This document shows positions 20 through 21,236 of a stretch of 21,236 nt of DNA, piece after piece. Made by a program: the position numbers and the translations under genes. Location: IMG/VR virus record IMGVR_UViG_3300005577_000102, positions 1 to 21,236 of that record; one strand, given 5' to 3'. The notes beneath the pieces are model-generated. The model made no database searches. It was not told the origin of the DNA and saw only the letters and a list, made by a program, of their open reading frames with translations. This DNA comes from a virus. Numbering within the stretch: position 1 is the stretch's first letter; the number at the start of each line of letters is the position of its first letter.

Positions 20-772
20 ATGAATCTCGAACTCCAAGCCAAGCAACGTCTGCTCGCCAGCTCGACCTACGACCAGCCGACGCAGCCCGTGTCCAATTCG
101 GCCACCTTCTTCGCCAGCGTCGACGACGACTCGCGGCGCGTGATCGAGACCGAGCTGGGCGATGCACGCCGCGGCCACGCCGCCGCAAAGGCCCGTGGTC
201 ACACCGATGCGGTGACCGCTTACGAGAACCTGATCTCCGAGCTCGAGCGCGCGTCCAAGCCGGTCACGGCCAACGACACGTCGGACTTCGGATCGCTGCC
301 GACCTCGAACCCGAGCGACCTGCCCGCCACAGACCACGAGGCGGAAGCCGCAGACGACGTGATCCTGGGCGCCGACACGAGCTCCGCGCAGCAGCCGTGC
401 ATCATGGAAGGCGACGTCGATCCTGCCGATCCGAACGGCGAAGACCCGCTGAAGCTCGACACGACGGCCAGCCGCCTCTTCACCGAAGCCGAGGTGCGTG
501 AAGCCGGCAAGCGCTATCGCGCGGAACTCGAGGCCGAAGCCGGCCGACCGCTCAGCGACGACGAGGTGATCGCCATGGCGAATGCGAAGACGCTGGCGTC
601 GACCGAAGATCCGATCTCCGACGGCGCGGCCTTCGACATGCTCATCGACGGCGACGACGAGGAAGACGAGCCGGTCGTGCAGGAGCTGACGAACAACGAC
701 GGTGGCGTCGAGCCGCCGACCGATCAGCCGCTCCTCATCGACGACGTGAGCCAAGGCCCTCCCACCATCTAG
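20..772 (+). CDS. Acidic 250-residue protein with the shared N-terminal tag; function unknown
   Basis: I do not recognise a family. The protein begins MNLELQAKQRLLASS, which carries the L-x-A-K-x-R-L core found at the start of seven other proteins here; this fixes the start at position 20, although only a weak purine stretch (ctggga) precedes it. The rest is hydrophilic and strongly acidic, rich in Asp, Glu, Ser, Thr and Pro, with no membrane segment. Residues about 160-200 (FTEAEVREAGKRYRAELEAEAG and on) look helical, and an Asp/Glu run near residues 210-220 (DGDDEEDE) precedes a Pro-rich tail. Such composition is common in scaffold-like or internal head proteins. It is followed after 9 bases by the next gene with a good ribosome site, suggesting one transcript. 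A packaged virion protein is my inference from the tag; the coding call is secure. Confidence 0.8.
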   Translation: MNLELQAKQRLLASSTYDQPTQPVSNSATFFASVDDDSRRVIETELGDARRGHAAAKARGHTDAVTAYENLISELERASKPVTANDTSDFGSLPTSNPSDLPATDHEAEAADDVILGADTSSAQQPCIMEGDVDPADPNGEDPLKLDTTASRLFTEAEVREAGKRYRAELEAEAGRPLSDDEVIAMANAKTLASTEDPISDGAAFDMLIDGDDEEDEPVVQELTNNDGGVEPPTDQPLLIDDVSQGPPTI

Positions 773-1836: not shown

Positions 1837-4800
1837 CAAGCTCAGGGCGGCCCTGGTGAAGCGGCCGCGCACGAACCTGGTACCCAACAGCCAGTTCGAC
1901 GTCACCAAGGAGCAGAAGCAGCAGGGCTTCCTCGGTGTCTTCAACTGGATGTACAGCGGTGACCCGCGCAAGACGATGCTGAAGCTCGCCTTCGCACCGC
2001 TGATGAACATGTCGGCCATGCCGGTCGGCAAGATGCCTGCCGCCAAGACGCCGGAGCAGCGCAAGGAGCGCAAGAACCTCAACCAGGCCATCGCCGAGTG
2101 GGAGAAGAAGCGCATCGACTGGGGCCTGAACCAGTACACGTCGCTGCGCAAGGTCAACGCCGGCAACGACTCGCACTTCCTGCTGAAGCTGCCGGTCGTC
2201 CAGCTGACGACTGCGAGCCCTGAATCGGTCGACTTCGTGCTGCAGCTGTTCGGCGGCGAGTCCATGACCGACGAAGCCCGCAACAAGTACATCGAAGTCT
2301 GCCAGGCCGGCCTCACATCCGAGACTCCGCAGTACACCCTGTTCCCGGGTTCGCAGGTCGTGGCCAAGGCCGGCATCAAGGCCGACGCGACCACGATGTT
2401 CAGCCAGTGCCTGCGCGGCGTCGGCTACCAGGTTGACAGCCGCCATGTCACGATCTTCCTCGAGTTCGTCATCAAGCCGGTCGAGGCCTGCTACCTGATC
2501 TCGACCGACTGGGCCGAGATCCGTCCGGTCGACCTGTACCCGCTGTTCACGATGTGGGTCGAGGCCGAGTACGTCAGCCGTCAGTACGGCAAGAGCGCGA
2601 CCTCGATCTCTCGCATCGCCGAGACGCTGCCGAAGCATCTCGAGTCCGACGAGCGCGTGGACGAGAACAACATCACCATCAACCTGAAGGGCGAGCCGAT
2701 CTGGATTCCGCGTGCCTGCAACAACACGAACAAGTACGAGTCCATGTTCAGCGCTGCCGGTCAACAAGGTGACGGCGAGTTCGCGCTGCGCCGGATGGGC
2801 TCGGCTGGCAAGCCGCAGCTCCCGATCAACATCCCGATCCTGACCGACTGGGTGAACAACAAGTTCACGTACTCGGACTCGACCGGCAAGCCGCAAGTTC
2901 TCGACCTGGCGCACATGCGCAAGTGCAACGCGTCGATGGCCATGAACCTGCTGAAGCGCCCGATCCCGGATGCATTCATCACGCGCATGAGCCACTACGC
3001 GGAGGCCTGCAACCTGAGCATCGTGGCCCGGAACTACGGCGCCAAGATCGAGGACTTCCCCGGCGCGAGCGACGACCTCAGCATCGAGGACTACGCGAAG
3101 TTCGCCTTCAAGCAGTACTACGAGCTGACGAACGCGCAGTTCATGACCGGCTACTGGCTGATGGACAGCCTCAACGTCGTTGGAGGCGACCACAACTCGC
3201 CTGACGTGGAAGCCGAGCTCGCGATCCAGCCCGTCGCACGGTTCATCGTCACGCTCGCGGCCACGATGGTGAGGAACATCGAGTCGCTGTTCGTCAAGTA
3301 CGCCGTGACCACGATGACCGACCAGCTGGGTCAGATCCAGGTGCTCGCTGCCTACGGCGCTGATCTCGCCACGACGACGGTGCAGGCCGCGGCCATCAAC
3401 AAGCCGGCCGCTCTGCAAGGCGTGGACAAGAACTGGACTCCGCCGGCAGCCCCGCTGCTGACGCGCAAGTTCAGCGAGGAAGAGTCGGGTCTTCTGCCCC
3501 ACCAAGCCAAGATCCGCAACATCATGCGCGGTCGTCCTGACCTCGCTGCGTGGCCGGTCGACGCCGGTGGTGGCAAGTCGATGCTGGCGATCACGGACAT
3601 CCTGTACGAGATCGCGCACGGCGAGTCGTCGCCCTACCTCGTGATGTGCCCCAGCCACCTGGTGGCCAACTACGTGTCGGAAATCGTCGAGTTCACCGAC
3701 GGCAAGATCAACGTGATTCCGATCACGAGCTACAACGTGCGCACTTCGGGCCTCCCGCGCCTGAAGGAGATCATGGAAGCGGCGCCGATCAACACCATCC
3801 TGGTGGTCGACTACGACGCGCTGAAGTTCCGCTCGCGCGCGACCGTCTACGGCACGTCGACCATCACGGTCTACCCGGTCATCGACCTGATTCGTCAGTT
3901 CCAGCCTGGCTACGTCCTCATGGACGAATCGCACTTCCTGCGCAACACGGGCTCGGCTCGCATGAAGTCGGTGATGACCCTGGTCGCCGACATCAAGAAG
4001 AAGCGCATCGCTTCGGGCACGATGAACCCGGATTCGCCGTCCGACCTCCCCGGCCAGATGGCTATCCTGGACCCGACGGTCTTCGGCACCCGTGCGCAGT
4101 TCAACGAGAAGTACGGCGCGAAGATCAGCGGTCAGCGCGTGCTGCAGTGGAACCAGACCGGCCCGAATGCGGTCTCGACCGTGCTGTCGAAGCTGAAGGA
4201 GACTGTGGTGTGGGCGCCGGCGAAGCGCAAGGAATGGGCTTGCGCCCTGCCCCCGCGCTCCGACCAGTTCTCCATGGTGACGCTGACGCCTCGGCAGAAG
4301 GAGATGTACGACGCGATCTTCGACGACATGATCTCGAGCATCCGCAAGGCCGCCGAGACCGACAAGAACGCGAAGGCACTTCTGGAGAAGCTGACGGGCA
4401 AGAAGGCGACTGCCGAGGACGAAGAGAAGTTCGGCGACCTCGGCGACGTGAACCCGGATGCCGACGACGACTCGGAAGACGACGTGGACGACATCGGTCC
4501 GGCCATCCAGCCGTACCTGGCCGACATCGAGCGCTTCGTCACGAACCCGGCCTTCCATCCGTACGCCAAGAACGGCTTCATCAACGCTGAAGGCCAACGT
4601 GTGCCGCCGCTCTCGGGCGACGACCTCAAGAGCCCGAAGGCGCTGCTGCTGGCGCGTCGACTGCGCGAGTACCTCGACACGCACGACTCGAAGGCTCTGG
4701 TCTTCACCAACTACAACGAGTCCACCGACTCGCTGTTCGAGGCGATGCCTGACGACCTCAAGGCTTGCGGGCTGCTCTACAAGACCAGCAGCAAGACCGA

Positions 4801-6655
4801 GATGGTCAACGCCTTCAAGAAAGATCCGAAGATCCGCTGGATGATCGGCATCCGCAAGAGCCTGGAAGTCGGTCTGAATCTGCAGCAGGCCGGCATGCTG
4901 ATCCGCATGGAAGGCGTGTGGACGCCGGGTGAACAGGAGCAAGGTGACTCGCGTATCGAACGCCCGAACTTCTCGAAGGGCGGCGACAAGCGCGAAGAGC
5001 TGATCTTCGACACCATCGTGGCCGACAAGACGATCGACATCACGAAGGCTGCGCGCCTGCGTGCCAAGATCGTGCAGCTCGCGAAGTTCGACAACCCGAC
5101 GAACCCGAACTACCAGGCGATCCCGGAGATCCCCGTCATTCCTATGACGCTGGACACCATCGTCACGATGAATGACTTCGACTCGAACCTTGCCGCCTAC
5201 AAGGACTCGATGGAGATGCTCAGCGAGACGGTGAAGGCCGAGAACCGCGAGTACAAGGAGAAGATGATCGCCGAGGGCGGCTTCAAGTTCACGCAGGTCG
5301 CGCAGGCGCCTACACCTCCGGGTGCAGCACTGCTGGCCCGCGTGCCTTACGCCCAGGGCACCGAGCTCTACAAGGCGTCGGAGATGGGCCTGGTCCGGGT
5401 CGACAACTACCTGGGCATGGAACTCACCGGCGAGGACGACGAGGACGAGGTGCCGACCGGCGACGACGATGACGACTCGAAGGACAGCGCCGTCATCAAG
5501 GCCCAGCGTGCCAAGGTCATGGGCATGCGGTGTCACTGCGAGTTCGGCGACGGCACGATCTTCGGCGCTGCTGCACTCGGCAAGGGCAACTTCATCTCTC
5601 GCGTTCACGTGCTGCTCGAAGACGGGTCCAAGGCGCGTGGTCTCAAGGCCACCAACGTCTTCGTCATGACACGGACCGAGACCAATGGCATCGACATGCG
5701 CAACAAGATCGCGCAGGCGGCCGGTCTGGAAATGACCGCGCCGATCACGGTGCCGGGCTTGGTCGTCAAGCAGGCGAAGATCAGCCAGCGCCAGATCGAC
5801 CTGAAGAAGAAGGCCGAAGAGAAGGAGAAGCTGAAGAACCAGGTGAAGATCCTCGACCGCAAGTCGAAGATGAGCATCGGGCTGCAGCTGTCGATGCTGA
5901 ACGGCTACATGCGTCTCACCTACGACATCGGCACGAACCAGTCGGCGGTCAAGGCACTCGAGGCCGTGGGCTTCCGTCGCGATCCGGCCTACATGCAAGC
6001 GCGTATCAAGAATGCGCGCGTGCTCCTCAAGCAGGCTGAAGTGTGGGCCGAAGCCGGCTTCGAGGTCGACGACAAGGTCGACAACGACGCGTTCGACGTG
6101 CTGACGCAGGAACTGACCGGTGGCAACATCGCGACTTCCCGGCGCTACGCGCGGCTCATGGCTGGTGGCAACTTCCGCAACTACATGCGGCAGGAGTTCA
6201 AGCCGCGTGCCGACAAGAAGAGCCTCTGCCTCTTCGCACTCGTGACCGACGGTGGTGACACCGACCCGATCGCGATCCGTGAAGCCGAGAAGAACGGGGT
6301 CAACCCGAACTTCGGTGTCGCCTACATGTGTCTGCCCTACGGCGGCGGTTTCCCTGGCACCAAGCTGGCGACCTCCAGCCGCTACAAGGTGCCGGGCATG
6401 ACGTGGCGCCTGGCCGATCCGACCCTGTCGGTCTTCGTCAACAACCTCAGCGGTGCAGCCAAGGTCATCAACCAACTGCTGCAAGCCGGCGTCAAGGTCA
6501 TGAACGGCGACGAGCTGAAGCTGCAGGCGAAGAAGGTCAAGAAGCTGGTGCCGAAGGACGACGACACGCTCGATTTCCGAGTCGATGCCGCGCCGGAGGC
6601 TGGAGGCGAGGACGAAGAAGAAGTGCAACCGCAACGTCGTGGTCGCAAGGGCTGA
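1781..6655 (+). CDS. Giant SNF2-family (superfamily 2) helicase/translocase, 1624 residues
   Basis: An ATP-driven nucleic-acid translocase by its motifs. Residues 594-600 (DAGGGKS) are the Walker A motif with K599. MDESH at 714-718 is motif II (DExH type). SGT follows as motif III. In the second RecA lobe VGLNLQQA is motif V and QGDSRIER at 1054-1061 is motif VI with the arginine-finger residues. About 590 residues precede the ATPase core and match nothing I know. Acidic linkers lie near 880-907 and 1217-1236. Residues about 1247-1300 (FGDGTIFG, then VLLEDGS) look like a small SH3/Tudor-like barrel, followed by a charged helix near 1337-1365. The start at 1781 follows gaggaa and is preferred to an in-frame start 147 bases earlier. 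No methyltransferase motif was seen. Its place beside head genes suggests a virion-associated or DNA-entry/protection role, perhaps analogous to phage P1 DarB, but that is inference. Confidence 0.88.
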   Translation: MNAIASERIGQPLLPLPVSKLRAALVKRPRTNLVPNSQFDVTKEQKQQGFLGVFNWMYSGDPRKTMLKLAFAPLMNMSAMPVGKMPAAKTPEQRKERKNLNQAIAEWEKKRIDWGLNQYTSLRKVNAGNDSHFLLKLPVVQLTTASPESVDFVLQLFGGESMTDEARNKYIEVCQAGLTSETPQYTLFPGSQVVAKAGIKADATTMFSQCLRGVGYQVDSRHVTIFLEFVIKPVEACYLISTDWAEIRPVDLYPLFTMWVEAEYVSRQYGKSATSISRIAETLPKHLESDERVDENNITINLKGEPIWIPRACNNTNKYESMFSAAGQQGDGEFALRRMGSAGKPQLPINIPILTDWVNNKFTYSDSTGKPQVLDLAHMRKCNASMAMNLLKRPIPDAFITRMSHYAEACNLSIVARNYGAKIEDFPGASDDLSIEDYAKFAFKQYYELTNAQFMTGYWLMDSLNVVGGDHNSPDVEAELAIQPVARFIVTLAATMVRNIESLFVKYAVTTMTDQLGQIQVLAAYGADLATTTVQAAAINKPAALQGVDKNWTPPAAPLLTRKFSEEESGLLPHQAKIRNIMRGRPDLAAWPVDAGGGKSMLAITDILYEIAHGESSPYLVMCPSHLVANYVSEIVEFTDGKINVIPITSYNVRTSGLPRLKEIMEAAPINTILVVDYDALKFRSRATVYGTSTITVYPVIDLIRQFQPGYVLMDESHFLRNTGSARMKSVMTLVADIKKKRIASGTMNPDSPSDLPGQMAILDPTVFGTRAQFNEKYGAKISGQRVLQWNQTGPNAVSTVLSKLKETVVWAPAKRKEWACALPPRSDQFSMVTLTPRQKEMYDAIFDDMISSIRKAAETDKNAKALLEKLTGKKATAEDEEKFGDLGDVNPDADDDSEDDVDDIGPAIQPYLADIERFVTNPAFHPYAKNGFINAEGQRVPPLSGDDLKSPKALLLARRLREYLDTHDSKALVFTNYNESTDSLFEAMPDDLKACGLLYKTSSKTEMVNAFKKDPKIRWMIGIRKSLEVGLNLQQAGMLIRMEGVWTPGEQEQGDSRIERPNFSKGGDKREELIFDTIVADKTIDITKAARLRAKIVQLAKFDNPTNPNYQAIPEIPVIPMTLDTIVTMNDFDSNLAAYKDSMEMLSETVKAENREYKEKMIAEGGFKFTQVAQAPTPPGAALLARVPYAQGTELYKASEMGLVRVDNYLGMELTGEDDEDEVPTGDDDDDSKDSAVIKAQRAKVMGMRCHCEFGDGTIFGAAALGKGNFISRVHVLLEDGSKARGLKATNVFVMTRTETNGIDMRNKIAQAAGLEMTAPITVPGLVVKQAKISQRQIDLKKKAEEKEKLKNQVKILDRKSKMSIGLQLSMLNGYMRLTYDIGTNQSAVKALEAVGFRRDPAYMQARIKNARVLLKQAEVWAEAGFEVDDKVDNDAFDVLTQELTGGNIATSRRYARLMAGGNFRNYMRQEFKPRADKKSLCLFALVTDGGDTDPIAIREAEKNGVNPNFGVAYMCLPYGGGFPGTKLATSSRYKVPGMTWRLADPTLSVFVNNLSGAAKVINQLLQAGVKVMNGDELKLQAKKVKKLVPKDDDTLDFRVDAAPEAGGEDEEEVQPQRRGRKG

Positions 6656-6673
6656 CCGCAATTTCATGAGACA

Positions 6674-6695
6674 GGGTGAGACTACGGTCTCGCCC
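6674..6695 (+). terminator. Stable stem-loop with TACG tetraloop after the helicase gene
   Basis: A 9-bp stem (gggtgagac paired with gtctcgccc, one G-T wobble) closes a TACG loop, giving the C(UACG)G form that is exceptionally stable in RNA. It sits 18 bases after the helicase stop and 29 bases before the next start. No T run follows, so a classical intrinsic terminator is not well supported. An RNA 3'-end stabiliser, processing site or partial terminator separating the helicase from the head genes is equally plausible. Confidence 0.5.
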
Positions 6696-6724
6696 GCTCT
6701 CTGATCCACACAAAGGACTGTGAC

Positions 6725-7474
6725 ATGTCGAATCTCTCTGTGATTCCGCTGAAGAAGGCGATGGCCGAAGCCGGCTTTCTGATCTCCGAAGGCGAAGGCT
6801 TCCTCAAGCACGAGTTCCAGATGGCTCGTGACTACCTGACCAACATCGGGATGGGCCACATCGGCGACAACTTCCACGAGTTCGAGGCCGAGCTGGCCAA
6901 GGGCGCGCACGCGCTGGTCTCCGGCGTCACGCACCTCGTGGCCAAGGTCGAAGAGAAGGCGAAGGACCGCTTCGACCCCGAGACCGGGAAGAAGATCGTG
7001 GAGCCGCCGCTGAACAACAGCCCGCTGCTGAACACCGATCCGATCCCCGGGTCCACCGCCAACACCATCTCGGTCGCCGATCTGCACGCCGCGCATCAAG
7101 CGCCGCCGGTCGCCGTCGCCGAACAGCCGGGCTTCAGCTTCGAAGGCCAGCCGGTCGACACCGAAGAAGACGAAGCGACGGAAGAAGCCGAGCAAGCCGC
7201 TGCCGCCGAGAAGGCCGCAGCCGAAGCTGCTGCGGTGCAAGCTGCCGAAGCCCAGGAAGCCCAGGCTGCGATCGAACGCCAGGCGGCTGCCGAAGCCCAA
7301 GCCAAGGCTGAAGCCGAAGCGGCTGCTGCCGCGGAAGCCAAGGCCAAGGCTGATGCGGAAGCCGAGAAGGCCGCTGCGGTCGCTGCTCAACAGGCTGCCG
7401 ACTCGCAGGTGCAAGCCTCGACCGATCCGACGCACGTCGAGTCGACCGCCAACCAGACCGAAACCAAGGAGTAA
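6725..7474 (+). CDS. Ala/Glu-rich putative virion or assembly protein, 249 residues
   Basis: Residues 1-80 look like an ordered helical domain (for example KKAMAEAGFLISEGEGFLKH). Residues about 81-145 form a Pro/Asn/Thr-rich linker, and residues 146-228 are almost entirely Ala, Glu, Lys and Gln, predicting one long helix or coiled coil. There is no signal peptide or membrane helix. The start is supported by aaagga 7 bases upstream. It is the first gene after the hairpin at 6674 and begins the run leading to protease, scaffold and capsid genes. T4 has small acidic or helical prohead-core genes (67, 68) in the comparable place before protease gene 21. A prohead-core or assembly role is therefore a reasonable inference, not a recognised homology. 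Low-complexity Ala-rich coiled coils also occur in tail and injection proteins. Confidence 0.75.
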   Translation: MSNLSVIPLKKAMAEAGFLISEGEGFLKHEFQMARDYLTNIGMGHIGDNFHEFEAELAKGAHALVSGVTHLVAKVEEKAKDRFDPETGKKIVEPPLNNSPLLNTDPIPGSTANTISVADLHAAHQAPPVAVAEQPGFSFEGQPVDTEEDEATEEAEQAAAAEKAAAEAAAVQAAEAQEAQAAIERQAAAEAQAKAEAEAAAAAEAKAKADAEAEKAAAVAAQQAADSQVQASTDPTHVESTANQTETKE

Positions 7475-7904: not shown

Positions 7905-8693
7905 ATGGGTGGCCGTTTTCCCGCACAGTACTTCGACCGCGAGGAGCGTGATCGCATGCTCACGGCCGCCACGCTCATCAAGGGCGTGGGCGTCAGCGAG
8001 GAGCCGGCCTTCGATGCAGATGCGAAGCCGGATACCGAAGCGGCCGAGATGGTTCGCAAGCTCGACTTCGAGACGTGGCTGCCGTTCGCGGCAAAGACGT
8101 ACCACATCAGTCCTCACATCGAGGACTACATCATGAAGTCGATGCCGATCTGCCCGTCGGATTTCCCGAATCGGAACGGCATCGGCTTCCCGCTGCAAGA
8201 GCTCATCGCCTTCCAGCCGCCTCCGATGAACCGCCAGGTCTACAAGGCCTGGACCGGCTGCCCGATTCACCTCGAGCACGACAACGAGGACTGGACCAAG
8301 GCCTACGGTGTCATGTTCGACACGGCACTGACCAAGATCACGAACTTCGGGCGCGGCAAGCACTGGAAGGTCATGGGTCTGGTCGGCGTCGACAAGAACA
8401 AGTACCCCGACATCGCGAAGGAGCTGCTCGAAGGCAAGATCACGACCGGCTCGATGGGTGCGCTGGCTGACAGGTTCTCGTGCGCGGTCTGCGGTCGCGA
8501 AGCCACGGAGAACAAGTTCATGAACTGCAACCACGTGGGCTCCACCAAGGAGGTCAACTGGAAGCTCGTGGACTACATGGGCAAGCAGCGCATCGCGTAC
8601 CTCAACGCTCACGGCCTGTCGCCGATCGAGTACTCCATCGTCCGCGATCCCGCCTGGGTCTCGGCCATGTCCGACCACATCATGAGCTGGTGA
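7905..8693 (+). CDS. Prohead (capsid maturation) serine protease, 262 residues
   Basis: Likely the phage prohead protease that trims scaffold and capsid proteins during maturation (herpesvirus assemblin-like fold). Candidate catalytic residues are H122 or H125 (IHLEHDNED) and S183 in GSMGALADR. The serine lies in the Ser-Met-Gly context, with the preceding VMGLVGVDK strand and IAKELLEGKI helix, that I associate with T4-type and jumbo-phage prohead proteases. It is followed by CAVCGREATENKFMNCNH (C193, C196, C208, H210), a Cys/His cluster that could bind zinc and that I recall in similar phage proteases. The gene position agrees: it precedes the acidic scaffold candidate and major capsid gene, as T4 gene 21 precedes 22 and 23. 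Start is supported by caggag upstream. The N-terminal 60 residues are hydrophilic and may be an autocleaved leader. Protease identity rests on motif plus context. Confidence 0.72.
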   Translation: MGGRFPAQYFDREERDRMLTAATLIKGVGVSEEPAFDADAKPDTEAAEMVRKLDFETWLPFAAKTYHISPHIEDYIMKSMPICPSDFPNRNGIGFPLQELIAFQPPPMNRQVYKAWTGCPIHLEHDNEDWTKAYGVMFDTALTKITNFGRGKHWKVMGLVGVDKNKYPDIAKELLEGKITTGSMGALADRFSCAVCGREATENKFMNCNHVGSTKEVNWKLVDYMGKQRIAYLNAHGLSPIEYSIVRDPAWVSAMSDHIMSW

Positions 8694-8697
8694 CACC

Positions 8698-9066
8698 ATG
8701 ACCAAACTGCAAGCAAAGTCGCGGCTCGTCGCCGCAGCCATCGCACGTGTCGTGACCGCGACCAACATCCCGTGGGACAAGACGTTCAAGAAGACGTTCA
8801 CGGGAAGTCCGTCGACCGGCACCTACGGTCTCAAGACCAAGGAAGGCGGTCACGCGCAGGTGCGCGTCATGATCGACAGTGAGGACGAGACTCCGGACTC
8901 GAAGAAGCTGCGCGAGATGGACCAGAAGTATGGCGGCAACCTCATGGACGGCGTGCCGAACATCGAGCTCAAGATCGCGGGCAAGGACATCGCCCTGACC
9001 TGGGAAGAAGCCTACAACCTGGGCTTCATGCTGATGAAGAACGCAGAGAGCGCCTACTACGGCTGA
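8698..9066 (+). CDS. Tagged small protein next to the prohead protease, 122 residues
   Basis: The N-terminus MTKLQAKSRLVAA carries the shared tag, with one extra residue before the K-L-Q-A-K-S-R-L core. The rest is a small soluble domain with a basic, aromatic first half (DKTFKKTFTG) and a more acidic middle (DSEDETPDSKKLREMDQKYGG) ending in a helix (TWEEAYNLGFMLMKNAES). I do not recognise a family. It lies 4 bases after the protease stop, and only a weak ribosome site is visible, suggesting coupling to protease translation. If the tag is a capsid-targeting signal, this protein would be an internal head protein made together with the protease that could cleave it. That interpretation is inference. 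Confidence 0.75.
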   Translation: MTKLQAKSRLVAAAIARVVTATNIPWDKTFKKTFTGSPSTGTYGLKTKEGGHAQVRVMIDSEDETPDSKKLREMDQKYGGNLMDGVPNIELKIAGKDIALTWEEAYNLGFMLMKNAESAYYG

Positions 9067-9075
9067 AGGACGACC

Positions 9076-9339
9076 ATGAACGACATCAAGCTGAAGGCCA
9101 AGAGCCGCCTCGGTTCCGAACTCGGAGCCTCGACCTCGCTGCACACGAGCGAGAACACCGCACCGCAGACGCAACCGGTTGCCAGGCTCGGCAACGGTGG
9201 CTCGCGAGCTGTCGGTCTGAATGCCGAACCCGCTGCCAACGCGGAAGCTCCGAACCCGATGAAGGTGGGCGCCGTTGCCCGCCTGAAGAACGCGGGCTCG
9301 AGCGCCAGCGCCGTCAAGGCGCAGAAGACGAACCAATAA
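9076..9339 (+). CDS. Tagged 87-residue low-complexity protein with two degenerate internal repeats
   Basis: It begins MNDIKLKAKSRLGSEL, carrying the shared core K-L-x-A-K-S-R-L with three residues ahead of it. The rest is small, basic and probably disordered, rich in Ala, Asn, Gly and Ser. It contains two related segments, VARLGNGGSRAVGLNA near residue 35 and VARLKNAGSSASAVKA near residue 65, each with a VARL element echoing the tag's RL. No folded domain is evident. The start is supported by aagga just upstream, overlapping the end of the previous gene. A basic, unstructured, tagged protein beside protease and scaffold genes resembles DNA-associated internal head proteins of other large phages in general character only. 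No homology is claimed. Confidence 0.68.
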   Translation: MNDIKLKAKSRLGSELGASTSLHTSENTAPQTQPVARLGNGGSRAVGLNAEPAANAEAPNPMKVGAVARLKNAGSSASAVKAQKTNQ

Positions 9340-12382: not shown

Positions 12383-13456
12383 ATGCGTACCCAAGTGAAC
12401 ATCCGCGCGGCCAAGTCGCCCGTGCTCGCCGCCGACCTCCGCCCGGTCGACGGTGGCGAATCCTTCGTCGGCCGCTACCAGGGCTCCGGCAAGGGCGAGC
12501 TGAACGCGAGTTCGAAGCGCGACCTGCTGGAACAGCAACGCAAGTTCCTGACCGCAGCGTCGGCCGGCAACATGCTCGCGATCACGGCTTCCGAGTCGAA
12601 GGACCTGGTCCGTGCCGCGTTCAACAGCCCCGAGGCCCACCGCGTGCTCGGCGAGAAGATCAGCGAGTCGCTGTACATCACGGCGAATCGTCAGGGCTTC
12701 ATGCGCAAGTACCTGGCCAAGATCGACGTCGAGATGGGCTCGATCCCGCGCTTCCCGCTGCGCAACAAGAACGTGACCGCGGTCTGGTCCACCAGCCCGA
12801 CCAAGGTCGAGTCGCAGATCACCCGCGACAAGTGGTTCACCCCGCCGGAACTGACGGTCGTGGCCCGTCCGTTCATCCCGCAGGTGGAACTGAACCAGTC
12901 CAGCGGCGACGTGCTGCAGGAGAAGTACATCGAGGCCGTCGAGGCCACGATGGTGGCGGAAGACCGCCTCTACTACAACCAGCTGCAGAGCCTGGTCGGC
13001 GTCGACAACAACCTGACCATCGTGTCGGGCCAGCTGACGCCGTACAGCCTGATGACGGTCGTGACCAACGTGACCCGCTGGGGTCTGAAGGGCGCGCACC
13101 TGCTGATGGCGACGGACCTGTGGCAGGACGTGGTCGGCAACTCCGACTTCTTCACCGCCATCGACCCGGTGGCCCGTCACGAGCTCCTGCTCACCGGCGA
13201 GCTGGGCACGATGTACGGCATGACCGTCACGTCGGACGCGTTCCGTCATCCGGAGCACAAGGTCCTGGGCCAAGGCGAGTTCTTCGTGATCTCGGACGCC
13301 CTGAACCACGGCGCGTACTCGGATCGCGGCGGCCTGCAGTCGACCCCGATCGACATCTCGATCGAGAAGATCCCGGGTCGCGGCTTCGTGCTGCACGAGG
13401 CCCTGGCCGTGTCGGTGGCGAACAGCCGCTCCTTCGCGAAGGGCTACCGCCTGTAA
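12383..13456 (+). CDS. Major capsid protein, HK97-like fold, 357 residues
   Basis: The main shell subunit. Length is normal for this fold. Helical N-terminal part (SSKRDLLEQQRKFLTAAS, about residues 44-60) is followed by the body and then by a C-terminal beta-rich region with the phrasing of phage capsid subunits: LLMATDLWQDVV, HELLLTGELGTMYGMTVTSDAF, VLGQGEFFVISD and GRGFVLHEALAVSVAN. The N-terminus MRTQVNIRAAKSPVLAAD is basic and could be a propeptide removed by the protease encoded upstream; its AAKSPVLAA faintly resembles the shared tag but does not match the R-L core. Start is supported by caggag. Codon use is the most biased in the window (nearly all Leu CTG or CTC), consistent with the most abundant virion protein. 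A large hairpin follows the stop by 8 bases. Confidence 0.85.
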   Translation: MRTQVNIRAAKSPVLAADLRPVDGGESFVGRYQGSGKGELNASSKRDLLEQQRKFLTAASAGNMLAITASESKDLVRAAFNSPEAHRVLGEKISESLYITANRQGFMRKYLAKIDVEMGSIPRFPLRNKNVTAVWSTSPTKVESQITRDKWFTPPELTVVARPFIPQVELNQSSGDVLQEKYIEAVEATMVAEDRLYYNQLQSLVGVDNNLTIVSGQLTPYSLMTVVTNVTRWGLKGAHLLMATDLWQDVVGNSDFFTAIDPVARHELLLTGELGTMYGMTVTSDAFRHPEHKVLGQGEFFVISDALNHGAYSDRGGLQSTPIDISIEKIPGRGFVLHEALAVSVANSRSFAKGYRL

Positions 13457-17704: not shown

Positions 17705-18082
17705 ATGAAACTGCAAGCTAAATCCAGGTTACTCGCGTCAGGTGTCGATCCGAAGGTCTCGAAAGCGACCGAGGAGTTTCTGACGATGGCACAGAAGCAT
17801 CTGAAGTCTGCCGGATTCGAGGTCAAAAAGCGCAAGCAGAGTGCCCTCTACGACTGGGAGTTTGAGAAGGACGGTCGCAGGATCGTCCTCAACGGCTGGC
17901 ACGGCACGGGTGGTTTCGGCGCCGGCAAGACGCTTTTTGACATCTTCGACACGGAACCGACTGCCGGCCACAAAGCCGACAAGTACGACCGTATTGTCCA
18001 CATTGAGCCCGACGCGAGCACCGAAGAGATGCTCAAGGCGGTGCATGATGGGACTGCCTACATCCAGTCGGTGAAGAAATGA
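17705..18082 (+). CDS. Tagged small protein 1 after the tail tube, 125 residues
   Basis: Begins MKLQAKSRLLASGV, the fullest copy of the shared tag, which fixes the start at 17705 within a longer open frame. After residues 11-35 (helical) comes an alpha/beta domain: KHLKSAGFEVKKRKQ, YDWEFEKDGRRIVLNGW, then GTGGFGAGKT (67-76) and a C-terminal helix. GTGGFGAGKT formally matches a Walker A pattern, but the protein is too short for a P-loop ATPase and has no visible Walker B, so I do not call it one. Codon use is looser than in the tube gene (AAA, GCT, TTA, TCC). The stop overlaps the next start as ATGA. I recognise no family; a packaged or injected small protein is inferred from the tag. Confidence 0.75.
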   Translation: MKLQAKSRLLASGVDPKVSKATEEFLTMAQKHLKSAGFEVKKRKQSALYDWEFEKDGRRIVLNGWHGTGGFGAGKTLFDIFDTEPTAGHKADKYDRIVHIEPDASTEEMLKAVHDGTAYIQSVKK

Positions 18083-18402
18083 AACTCAACGCCAAGGCAC
18101 GACTCCTGGCGCTGCAGGACCTCAAGACCCTCGGACCTCGGCTGCTCGAGGTCCTGAAGGACACGTTCGAGACCGCTGACTTCGAGCTCACGCACAACGG
18201 GCGTCAGGAGATCAAGAGCAACGGCCGTCTCTCCGATGGCATGTTCAAGATCGGCGCCCGCGACCTGAACAAGCTGGTGTTCACCCATCTCGGTTACAAG
18301 ATCGCGGACCACGGGTCCAAGATCACGTGGTCGAAGAAGGGTGAGCCCGGATGGGTCATGGAGCACATCGGCGGCAAGGTCCACCTCCACGAGGAACTGT
18401 GA
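18079..18402 (+). CDS. Tagged small protein 2, 107 residues
   Basis: Begins MKLNAKARLLALQDL, with Q to N and S to A changes relative to the previous copy. The body is alpha then beta: LGPRLLEVLKDTFETADFEL, then MFKIGARDLNKLVFTHLGYKIAD, and a closing strand (KITWSKKGEPGWVMEHIGG). I recognise no family. Overall arrangement (helix, FEL or FEV strand, then short strands) loosely resembles the preceding gene, so the two could be diverged paralogues beyond the tag; this is weak. Start and stop overlap both neighbours (ATGA and TGATG), so this gene is translated by coupling. It has no strong independent ribosome site. Confidence 0.72.
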   Translation: MKLNAKARLLALQDLKTLGPRLLEVLKDTFETADFELTHNGRQEIKSNGRLSDGMFKIGARDLNKLVFTHLGYKIADHGSKITWSKKGEPGWVMEHIGGKVHLHEEL

Positions 18403-18767
18403 TGAAGCTGCAGGCGAAGGCCAGACTGAGCTCGCTGATCTCCATCCTCGCCTCCGTCGTCAACACAACTGATCGGCCTCCGTCGACCTACATGGACGAA
18501 GCGGAGGCCGACCACCAGTTGCCGCGTGAAGACGAAGTCGACGATGAGTTGATCGGCAAGGGCATGGATGATGCCGACAACCCGGGTAACACCGGGTATC
18601 AGCCGGATGATGAGAACCAGAACCTCATCAAGCAGAGTGACGCCGAGATCATGCACAGCGACACGGGCCCAACATCCATGGGCATGGGTCTCGGTGCTGG
18701 TCATCGACTTCTGTCGACGGGTCCTCTGCAAGCCATGCCCGACCTCGGAGACTATCAGACCCTTTAA
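18402..18767 (+). CDS. Tagged small protein 3, acidic and probably disordered, 121 residues
   Basis: Begins MKLQAKARLSSLISILASVV, tag first and then a short hydrophobic helix (residues 9-20). Beyond residue 24 it is hydrophilic, acidic and rich in Asp, Glu, Asn, Gly and Pro (DEAEADHQLPREDEVDDEL, then DDADNPGNTGYQPDDENQN), ending in a Gly/Met-rich segment (MGMGLGAGHRLL). No folded domain is apparent. The start overlaps the previous stop by one base (TGATG at 18400-18404). A tagged protein with a long acidic disordered region is unusual among the set, and similar in composition to the first gene in the window. Function unknown. Confidence 0.7.
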   Translation: MKLQAKARLSSLISILASVVNTTDRPPSTYMDEAEADHQLPREDEVDDELIGKGMDDADNPGNTGYQPDDENQNLIKQSDAEIMHSDTGPTSMGMGLGAGHRLLSTGPLQAMPDLGDYQTL

Positions 18768-18777
18768 GGAGGACACG

Positions 18778-19470
18778 ATGAGCGATCCCATCCAGTGTTT
18801 CATGCTCGAAGTCGTGGAGCGCGAGACCGCGTTCGTATGCGCTTCGCTGAAGAGCGAACTGCGCGGCGGCTCCGTTCCAGCCGAACAGCGAGCATGTCCG
18901 AAGATGCCCGGTCGCCTCCATCGTGCAGAGATCCAGGTGCCTGTCGGCTTCGGTCTCTCCAACGTCTTCACGGGCGCCGACGACACCCTCTACGTGCAGC
19001 TGAGTGACAAGCGCGTCCAGCTGTGCTGCGACGGCTGCGGCATGGCCTTCAAGGCTGACGAGTCGGACGCGTGGTCTTCCCACCCGACTCGCTGGTACCG
19101 CAATCCGCGCACGGGCAAGGAAGGCTCGAACGCATATCAGGTGGGGTCACCTGGCGCCATCTACAGCGCGGACTGGCTCGATGATGAAGAGCACATGTCC
19201 GACCTGCTCAGCGACTACTACCGTCAGCAGTGGCGCGGCAAGCGCAAGCCCCTGACGGTGGTGCTGCCCGACAACACGCACTGGGTCGTGGATCAGAAGT
19301 CCACGATCCGCGGTCAACCGAATCAATGGGGTCCCGGTTGGACCATCACGGGCGACGCACCGTACTTGACTGCGAGCCCCAGCATCGACACGAACACGTA
19401 CCACGGCTTTCTCCAGTCGGGTGTCCTCACCCCTGACCTCGAAGGTCGTACATACGCAACCAGGACCTGA
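18778..19470 (+). CDS. Hypothetical protein without the tag, 230 residues
   Basis: It begins MSDPIQCFMLEVVERETAF and has no copy of the tag, the only exception in this run. The start follows a perfect taaggagg at 18766-18773, better than its neighbours. The N-terminal half has several Cys (residues C7, C21, C40 and CCDGCG near 82-87), perhaps a metal site. The C-terminal half is rich in Trp, Tyr, Asn and Gly (RWYRNPRTGKEGSNAY, then PDNTHWVVDQKSTIRG and WGPGWTITGDAPYLTASP), giving the look of a small beta-rich domain. I do not recognise a family. Its position inside the tagged run suggests joint expression rather than the same sorting. Confidence 0.72.
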   Translation: MSDPIQCFMLEVVERETAFVCASLKSELRGGSVPAEQRACPKMPGRLHRAEIQVPVGFGLSNVFTGADDTLYVQLSDKRVQLCCDGCGMAFKADESDAWSSHPTRWYRNPRTGKEGSNAYQVGSPGAIYSADWLDDEEHMSDLLSDYYRQQWRGKRKPLTVVLPDNTHWVVDQKSTIRGQPNQWGPGWTITGDAPYLTASPSIDTNTYHGFLQSGVLTPDLEGRTYATRT

Positions 19471-19472
19471 CG

Positions 19473-20324
19473 ATGAAGCTGCAAGCCAAGTCCCGTCTGT
19501 TGGCGTTCGCGCCAACGTCCGAGCTGACCGATGTGATCCGCACGCGGGTCGCTGAAGCGCTCCACAAGGTGGGGCTCAAGGTGCAGCCGCAGCACAGCGC
19601 CGGGATCTACCCCACCATCCTGTACTTCGACTTCGAGTCCAGCTCGTGGGCCATATCCATCGGCGAGGTCCAGCACGGCGTGGCACAGCTCTTCGTCGAG
19701 ACGCCACGCGAGATCACGAACGAAGCGCTGCGGCTCTTCACTCGCACCAAGAGCTGGGACGGTGTGGAGGCTGCGAACGAGCTGGTTCGACGTTGCCTCG
19801 CGACCCTGAAGAAGACGGGCATTCACTTCGAGCTCGAGCAGCCGAACGTGATTCACAAGCTGGTGACGATCGCCGGCACGTTCCCGGTCCCGAAGCAGCT
19901 GAAGGCCGCCAAGCAACAGCTGGCCTACCACTTCACCGAAGGCAAGAACGTGCGCAAGATCGAGCGCGAAGGCCTGAAGCTGACGAAGGAAGGCCAGGGC
20001 CTGTGGAAGGGCAGCCTCAAGTACGGCAAGCCCTCGATCTTCCTGACGATGTCGAAGAAGCCCGAAGTCGTGTCGCAGGTCATGGGCATGCTGCTGTCCA
20101 AGCGCTGGTCGCTGGAGGAGTGGGGCGAGTTCGATGAGTCGAAGCTCCGCGCTGTCAACGCGCAGTATCGTGCGGTCACGATCGATCTCGCGAAGGTCCC
20201 TGGCGCGGTGCTGTACCAGGACGAGCTGGTCGATGAGCCGGAGTTCAAGTTCATCACCGTGCCCGTGCCGCCCGAAGCCATCGTCTCCTTTTTCATGGTC
20301 GAACCCAACTGGTGGAATGCCTGA
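19473..20324 (+). CDS. Tagged ADP-ribosyltransferase-like protein, 283 residues
   Basis: A candidate enzyme that moves ADP-ribose from NAD+ onto a target. The tag MKLQAKSRLLAF is followed by a domain of residues about 15-145 with no recognised family. The C-terminal part then shows an ADP-ribosyltransferase pattern: YHFTEGKNVRKIEREGL (152-168, with H153, the usual H-x-T/S ... I ... GL first motif), PSIFLTMSKKP (187-197, the strand-and-turn of the second motif) and EFKFITVPVPPEAI (257-270, with the P-P-E-A-I ending seen in Tpt1/KptA- and DarT-like families; E-rich DELVDEPE precedes it). Whether it ribosylates proteins, DNA or RNA, or acts as an RNA 2'-phosphotransferase, cannot be read here. 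T4 Alt, packaged and injected, is the model for its suggested role. Start has caggacc upstream, 3 bases after the previous stop. Confidence 0.65.
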   Translation: MKLQAKSRLLAFAPTSELTDVIRTRVAEALHKVGLKVQPQHSAGIYPTILYFDFESSSWAISIGEVQHGVAQLFVETPREITNEALRLFTRTKSWDGVEAANELVRRCLATLKKTGIHFELEQPNVIHKLVTIAGTFPVPKQLKAAKQQLAYHFTEGKNVRKIEREGLKLTKEGQGLWKGSLKYGKPSIFLTMSKKPEVVSQVMGMLLSKRWSLEEWGEFDESKLRAVNAQYRAVTIDLAKVPGAVLYQDELVDEPEFKFITVPVPPEAIVSFFMVEPNWWNA

Positions 20325-20325
20325 G

Positions 20326-21236
20326 ATGAAACTCGAAGCTGAGACGCGCCTCATGCTCATGGAGGCGGCCGACGTCACCTATGAGCAGTACGCGACAGTG
20401 GTCGAAGCCCTGGCGCGTGATCCGCACGAGCTGCAAGCCTTCGAGTTCAAGGTGCCGAGTGCACTGAAGAAGCTGTGGTCCGAGCTGAAGGAAGTCGGAG
20501 CACTGCTGGCCGAGTCGGCTCACATCGGCTGGGACTCCATCGTCCAGGCCTTCAAAGAGAAGTCGGTGTTCCGACTCCTGAAGGGTGTGGGCTTCTCGAT
20601 CGCCAAGCTACTCAAGGCCGTCAAGAAGGCGATGGCACTTCCGGCGACCGCGTTGTTCGCGGCCTTCGATGATCTGATCGAGACCTTCGGTTCCTCGAAG
20701 CTGATGCAGCATCTCGATGTCCACGAGCGCGTGAAGAAGCTGGACGAAGTGATCCATCGCCATCCGGTGCTGACCAAGGTCACGGGTCTCGCAGTCGCAG
20801 GTTTCCTCGTGTGGGGATTCCTTCACGCGTCGTCGACCGGCGATGCAGACTACGACCTGGGCATCGTCGACGCGGTCATCAACTGCATCAAGGGTGACTA
20901 CAGCCTGGCCGACATGTTCGCCTCCAAGCAAGGCCTGAAGGACATCAGTGTCCTGCTGTTCGGTCTCGCGTCCGGTGGTCTCGGCATCACGGCCTACGGC
21001 GCCTCTCATGTGGAAGGCCTGCTGCACTTCCTCGGCTCCCACTCGGGCGATGCCGCGTCGCTCATGGTCGCGCTCTTCTACGCGGCAGCAAAGAAGCTGC
21101 ACCTCAAGATCAACTACGAGCACATGCCGCAGCCTCTGCACGGCGCACTCGTCATCGATCCGAAGGAGCCGCACGGTCGGACCCACAAGTGGTTCCATTC
21201 GCTGCCTGCCGAGGATCGCAAGGCCTACATGAAGAA
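20326..21236 (+). CDS. Tagged membrane-associated protein, truncated by window end
   Basis: Begins MKLEAETRLMLMEAAD, a more divergent tag (K to E at position 6) that keeps the L-x-A-x-x-R-L spacing. The frame stays open for 303 codons to the last base, with no stop. Residues about 45-125 are helical, with Lys-rich stretches (LLKGVGFSIAKLLKAVKKAM). Two hydrophobic segments, about 148-168 (VLTKVTGLAVAGFLVWGFLHA) and 207-225, could cross a membrane. The final segment (HGRTHKWFHSLPAEDRKAYMKK) is basic and His-rich. A membrane-active internal protein that helps DNA cross the host envelope would fit tag and topology, but that is inference. It starts one base after the preceding stop. Full length and family are unknown. 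Confidence 0.75.
   Translation, partial: MKLEAETRLMLMEAADVTYEQYATVVEALARDPHELQAFEFKVPSALKKLWSELKEVGALLAESAHIGWDSIVQAFKEKSVFRLLKGVGFSIAKLLKAVKKAMALPATALFAAFDDLIETFGSSKLMQHLDVHERVKKLDEVIHRHPVLTKVTGLAVAGFLVWGFLHASSTGDADYDLGIVDAVINCIKGDYSLADMFASKQGLKDISVLLFGLASGGLGITAYGASHVEGLLHFLGSHSGDAASLMVALFYAAAKKLHLKINYEHMPQPLHGALVIDPKEPHGRTHKWFHSLPAEDRKAYMK

Follow-up and report, generated by a model that had tools for sequence, protein, structure and literature searches.

We describe a gene at positions 19473-20324 of a 21,236-nucleotide stretch of viral DNA (IMG/VR virus record IMGVR_UViG_3300005577_000102), the whole of which we call the window. Its 283-amino-acid product joins a short N-terminal peptide shared with many other proteins, here called the tag, to a small N-terminal domain (N-domain) and to a C-terminal domain (C-domain) that resembles ADP-ribosyltransferases (ARTs) in its motifs. 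The window is part of the genome of a jumbo myovirus, a relative of Burkholderia phage BcepSauron and Achromobacter phage Motura, and the protein is probably made late, as cargo of that phage. By analogy with known packaging systems, the tag probably sorts cargo into the virion. Taken as a whole, a late tagged cargo with an ART-like C-domain is the explanation we prefer, tentatively and at somewhat less than an even chance. The parts of the gene are as follows.

19473..20324, + strand: tagged protein of 283 residues (tag, N-domain and ART-like C-domain), an open reading frame (ORF) with an ATG start
19473..19505, + strand: tag MKLQAKSRLLA (residues 1-11), by membership in a 50-member tag set, start-proximal enrichment and a position-specific scoring matrix (PSSM) score of 32.6
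19506..19877, + strand: N-domain (about residues 12-135), shared with a 232-residue tagged protein of the relatives G005 and G007, by tag-free Smith-Waterman alignment
19893..20321, + strand: C-domain (residues 141-283), ART-like by motif, without detectable homologue
19929..19931, + strand: codon of H153, the proposed strand-1 NAD-binding histidine (HxT), by local alignment to YHGT of E. coli KptA
20241..20243, + strand: codon of E257, a candidate catalytic glutamate ahead of VPPEAI, placed from the ART layout

A tag conserved at the level of residues

The tag consensus, [LI]-x-A-[KR]-x-R-L-L-A, lies within a few residues of the start in 8 proteins of the window (the product of 19473-20324 included), in 13 proteins of the 139-kb sister contig G002 and in many proteins of relatives. 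In DNA as GC-rich as this, a greedily chosen ORF set loses real genes to long antisense frames, and six-frame ORFs were used for the tag counts. Among all such ORFs, strict matches directly follow the methionine in 7 of 7 cases in the window and 12 of 14 in G002, where about 9% would be expected, giving a start-proximal enrichment of P 4e-8 and P 2e-11, respectively. The same holds for G007 (9/11), G008 (12/15), G009 (6/7) and Motura (5/8), against an expectation of about 9-12%. The strict pattern is not enriched at starts in Sauron (1/9 after Met), and looser versions occur there, for example MKLEAATRLLATS. PSSM scores run from 18 to 34 in tagged genes versus at most 8 at 4,585 other positions, and A5, R8 and L9 are invariant over 50 tags. 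Within the tag six codons are used for Arg, four for Ala and five for Leu while the residues stay fixed, which argues that selection acts on the tag peptide.

Tags in G002 are restricted to 39.6-78.2 kb, a part holding head and tail genes, and the tagged genes of G007, G008, G009 and Motura stand in blocks similar to it. Tagged ORFs of Motura (NC_049849) are located at 112891-113343, 134655-134996, 138584-139123 and 143836-144219. A scan of viral contigs for tag DNA returned the known contigs and one extra tagged fragment, L079. We found no description of the tag set in the part of the literature that was searched, of which coverage was partial.

The clearest indication that the tag is an add-on comes from a tagged protein of G002 (42127-42774, equal to L012:3127-3771), an oligoribonuclease-like 3'-5' exoribonuclease (RNase_T in Pfam, E 2.7e-6). 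Solved oligoribonucleases align to it from query residue 23-28, mostly with their own residues 3-8; thus, its approximately 22 N-terminal residues appear to be an extra extension that contains the tag. Another tagged protein, of 328 residues in G007 (42727-43713, in L032), is a NUDIX hydrolase (E 3.6e-15) and a candidate injected enzyme. The packaging of NUDIX proteins is frequently discussed.

As a separate observation, the capsid protein has a loosely tag-like N-terminus, IRAAKSPVLAA (12383-12430), which is similar in relatives; its PSSM score is only -1.6, under that of several internal background positions. Judged from this likeness, one docking or cleavage partner may serve both the capsid N-terminus and the tag.

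A real gene in the head and tail region

The gene 19473-20324 is real. Its ATG lies 2 bases past the stop of the preceding gene, its GC content at third codon positions (GC3) of 0.88 is similar to that of neighbouring genes, and near-identical copies exist in G002 and in the 9-kb contig L001. The 13 nucleotide changes that separate it from the G002 copy comprise 12 synonymous and 1 non-synonymous; in the C-domain there are 8 synonymous and 0 non-synonymous changes, which indicates that this domain is maintained as a protein. PHROG families identify a head protease, a capsid protein and a sheath in the window, and the order head protease, ATPase-like protein, capsid, sheath and tube is common to the window, Sauron and Motura. 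The capsid protein shows 68% identity to that of BcepSauron and 55% to that of Motura.

7905..8693, + strand: head maturation protease, candidate tag-cleaving enzyme (PHROG 18299, E 4.8e-77)
12383..13456, + strand: major capsid protein (PHROG 2522, E 2.3e-87)

An earlier note, made from the letters of the window, had proposed an ORF at this site, a location in the structural (late) region and an N-terminal tag shared with other proteins. These proposals are borne out: the 283-residue frame opens with ATG, the capsid, sheath and tube genes all lie upstream of it, and the tag recurs in 8 window genes with the start enrichment given above and PSSM scores well above background.

Turnover of tagged genes and an exchangeable C-terminus

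The gene occupies a slot between two genes that are conserved in relatives. The contents of this slot differ among those relatives: it is empty in G008, holds a tagged ORF of 62 residues in G009, and in G005 and G007 contains, among others, the 232-residue tagged protein. With the tag excluded, residues ~19-126 of our protein are homologous to that slot protein (Smith-Waterman score 84, z 13.8, 0 of 3000 shuffles), and the C-termini of the two proteins are unrelated (103 of 300 shuffles score as well). Because the N-domain is shared and the C-terminus is not, the architecture is a tag, a shared N-domain and an exchangeable C-domain.

18757..19470, + strand: untagged gene at the upstream slot edge, conserved in relatives, with a weak DUF6527 match
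20326..21236, + strand: tagged helical protein at the downstream slot edge, conserved in relatives, which runs off the window
17705..18082, + strand: tagged protein of 125 residues, missing from this site in the two sister contigs

Tagged genes turn over faster than the untagged genes of the window. They have homologues in a mean of 0.9 of 4 relatives, versus 3.5 for untagged genes (P 1e-4), a comparison somewhat biased by the shorter length of tagged genes. The sister contigs are identical to the window up to the start codon of 17705-18082, and identity breaks at the tag. The GC3 of this gene is lower (0.74), which suggests a recent arrival. Its absence from the sisters, together with the break in identity at start codon and tag, points to gain and loss of tagged genes as cassettes. 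The product of 18757-19470, for its part, carries a CxxCG motif, and its C-terminal DUF6527 match (E 0.0016) is below the cut-off.

Motifs of the C-domain

The C-domain reads LAYHFTEGKNVRKIEREGLKL...KPSIFLTM...YRAVTIDL...EPEFKFITVPVPPEAI, with YHFT at residues 152-155, IEREGL at 163-168, PSIFLT at 187-192, PEFKF at 256-260 and PPEAI at 266-270. Assigned by eye, H153, F190 and E257 stand in the order of an ART (H/R in strand 1, Y/S/F in strand 2, E/D/Q in strand 5), and the elements follow the H-first arrangement: a strand-1 HxT, a helix ending in I-x-x-E-G-L, a strand ending in FLT and a glutamate before a VPPEAI turn. This order arose in 7 of 200,000 shuffles of the protein and in no other of 11,965 distinct six-frame ORFs of phage records, a rarity that is flattered because the pattern was written after the sequence had been seen. 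The HxT...EGL segment accounts for both of the best sub-threshold matches, which are to KptA in NCBIfam (E 0.15) and to DUF7002 in Pfam (E 0.12-0.24). From these motifs we consider it somewhat probable that the C-domain has an ART fold; whether it would be an active transferase we regard as evenly balanced.

Searches of viral contigs, genome contigs, phages and plasmids at the sensitivity used recovered C-domain homologues only in the same phage, and a DNA motif scan for YHFT...EGL gave the same phage and chance matches. Three further candidates were rejected. The likeness of L003 (40% over 60 residues) is due to chance, comprising little beyond KKTGIHFE in the N-domain part and standing among neighbours of an unrelated phage, and H32 and H33 are located in a glycoside-hydrolase-like and a phosphoesterase-like ORF.

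By the tests run, the protein is not a member of the Tpt1, DarT or Alt family. Its QLAYHFT...IEREGL does resemble QFLYHGT...IKKQGL of the RNA 2'-phosphotransferase KptA/Tpt1 of E. coli. However, E. coli KptA contains LRH (in FVLRHKP), whereas no Arg-His (RH) dipeptide occurs anywhere in the 283-residue protein, which scores 11.6 bits against the KptA model, far below the cut-off of 231. In Tpt1/KptA the Arg-His of the N-lobe belongs to the active-site tetrad. For DarT there is no Pfam match at E<=1 (whole protein) or E<=10 (C-domain) and none in PADLOC; more generally, no Pfam family reaches E<=1 with the whole protein, and DUF7002 is the one family to reach E<=10 with the C-domain. T4 Alt/VIP2 finds no PHROG or Pfam match, and the first motif residue is H rather than R. 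The earlier note had called the C-terminal half ART-like, of a Tpt1/DarT-like rather than Alt-like type. Its three motif strings are all present, its numbering of H153 is correct and the distance from Alt is upheld; of the ART-like character, the residue order stands and a significant family match is missing, and the Tpt1/DarT-like type is not supported, since the Tpt1 Arg-His motif and any DarT match are missing.

Relation to known packaging systems

Packaged ARTs and capsid-targeting peptides are already known kinds. Viral ARTs occur mainly in myoviruses; their genes often adjoin head genes, and packaging has been predicted for them (PMC9503650, PMC5512222). In T4, 10 residues of IPIII suffice for loading into the head and propeptides are cut by gp21 (PMC9026906), and Alt is a packaged ART that is ejected (PMC9026906, PMC9503650). 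The tagged proteins are like T4 Alt and IPI, IPII and IPIII in having a short N-terminal peptide common to differing, unrelated late proteins of one phage, expression at the late time of head formation and a cargo that varies between relatives (PMC9026906, PMC9503650). Alt is of the R-S-E class, whereas the C-domain here would be of the H-first class, and the packaging and processing known from T4 are putative here. The H-Y-[EDQ]-type phage ARTs share with our protein an H-first motif and a gene beside head genes, and they are predicted to be packaged and injected (PMC9503650, PMC5512222). They are carried by large polyvalent proteins or MuF/portal fusions, while the carrier here would be an 11-residue tag and a small N-domain, and their second motif residue is Y rather than F190. 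In P1, an N-terminal stretch of up to 30 residues of DarB carries a heterologous protein into the capsid, a loading stretch comparable to the tag; the N-termini of Dar proteins have no common consensus (PMC9024508), whereas that of the tags is plain.

One side observation concerns the neighbouring protein encoded at 20326. A protein distantly homologous to it (32% identity over query residues 17-217) is encoded in the 40%-GC contig G011 (L100:7574-8326), which is probably a T4-like phage and has genes with matches to the DNA primase and dCMP deaminase families of PHROG. The homologue is without the LQAKSRLLA tag and starts with MISFKEYNEV, which is similar to the T4 peptides MKTFKEFTS and MKTYQEFIAEA; no other G011 protein has a T4-type N-terminal pattern. 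If real, the likeness would mean that one and the same protein bears, in each phage, the loading peptide of that phage, a cross-check that consists of one case found post hoc.

Proposed mechanism and competing explanations

We propose that during assembly the tag would dock the protein to the core or shell of the prohead, that the head protease (7905-8693) may then trim the tag, and that the protein would leave the particle with the DNA at infection. The C-domain would use NAD+, with H153 in binding and E257 in catalysis, to attach ADP-ribose, early in infection, to a molecule of the host or to a defence component. The whole chain of tag loading, ejection and an NAD+-using C-domain is possible but, in our estimate, rather less than evenly probable.

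Several results count against this interpretation. The C-domain has no significant match in Pfam, NCBIfam, PHROG, PADLOC or the Protein Data Bank (PDB). AlphaFold2 without an alignment gave predicted local distance difference test (pLDDT) values of 31.5 for the whole protein and 34.5 for residues 140-283, too low for use, as there are no C-domain homologues from which to build an alignment. The alignment to E. coli KptA is only motif-long (20 residues, z 2.1, equalled by 22 of 500 shuffles). As for the tag, the T4 peptides (MKT[YF]xEF) are unlike LQAKSRLLA, and among the relatives examined, those from Erwinia, Vibrio, Xanthomonas, Rhizobium and Alcaligenes lack the tag in the vicinity of their head genes; its proposed role therefore rests on analogy. 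A virion proteome of a tagged phage was looked for and none was found.

The missing library matches, the lack of a reliable model, the post hoc motif pattern and the low KptA z score would all suit a tagged virion cargo whose C-domain is not an ART, with the pattern coincidental in an orphan domain of structural, DNA-protecting or inhibitor role, and so would the slot-mate whose different C-terminus, behind the same N-domain, lacks the motifs. We nevertheless hold this to be unlikely, since all elements are ordered and spaced as would suit an ART, an arrangement that is rare in shuffles and phage ORFs, the two best sub-threshold family matches coincide on one segment, and the C-domain is conserved as a protein. 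An ART-like enzyme could also act inside the infected cell, in late transcription or lysis control, with an incidental tag. T4 has non-packaged ARTs in ModA and ModB (PMC9503650), and a late position alone is no proof of packaging. Yet the tag is common to many unrelated late proteins, and an incidental peptide is not expected to keep its residues between phages whose core proteins are 65-76% identical, which makes this quite improbable.

Other explanations concern the tag itself. It might target the tail or baseplate, the inner membrane or a replication compartment, or mark proteins for a chaperone, rather than lead to the head interior; tagged genes also stand directly after the sheath and tube genes, and one tagged protein, on inspection of its sequence, is strongly helical-looking with long hydrophobic runs. 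However, tagged genes adjoin the head protease and the head genes, the tagged oligoribonuclease and NUDIX protein make sense as injected cargo, and T4 and P1 load their heads via short N-terminal peptides (PMC9026906, PMC9024508), so that another destination seems distinctly unlikely. That the shared 5' ends are DNA or RNA elements, such as recombination joints or translation enhancers, whose peptide has no sorting role, is very improbable. At the site where sister phages gained or lost a complete tagged gene, their identity does break at start codon and tag, but varying codons over fixed residues indicate a selected peptide, and the tag may be a joint as a by-product.

Returning to tagged virion cargo, we suggest, at just short of an even prospect, a wider reading: [LI]xA[KR]xRLLA in Saruman/Motura-type jumbo phages may be a capsid-loading code unrelated in sequence to that of T4, plugging in a dozen or more fast-changing injected effectors, an orphan H-first ART among them, with gain and loss of whole cassettes and joints at the tag. 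The effectors that giant phages package have no sequence in common, which makes them difficult to recognise. If the reading is true, a residue-level tag would make it possible to list a phage's injected proteins using nothing but its genome, to predict new enzymes of host takeover and anti-defence, and to bring foreign proteins into a large capsid. The product of 19473-20324 would then be a candidate for an injected ADP-ribosyltransferase of the H-first class that has neither a MuF nor a polyvalent carrier.

Other tagged genes

The remaining tagged genes of the window are these.

20..772, + strand: tagged acidic protein (MNLELQAKQRLLAS)
8698..9066, + strand: tagged protein of 122 residues adjoining the head maturation protease
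9076..9339, + strand: tagged protein of 87 residues (IKLKAKSRLGS)
18079..18402, + strand: tagged protein of 107 residues
18402..18767, + strand: tagged protein of 121 residues

A tagged protein of G008 (78305-78805, in L040), which has no Pfam match, contains GHEGRHRARELQAQG, resembling ParB-like or polyvalent-protein nuclease motifs. Finally, the motif W-x-x-L-x-x-x-x-R-x-x-Y-x-K-x-x-P-x-[ST]-K-[FY] recurs in tagged or related proteins. It is found C-terminally in the 20326 protein of G002 (L013) and of relatives, in L005:20540-22270, in L101:14848-15579 and in G009 6241-6741; Sauron gp075 has several copies, and in NCTB the motif is N-terminal.
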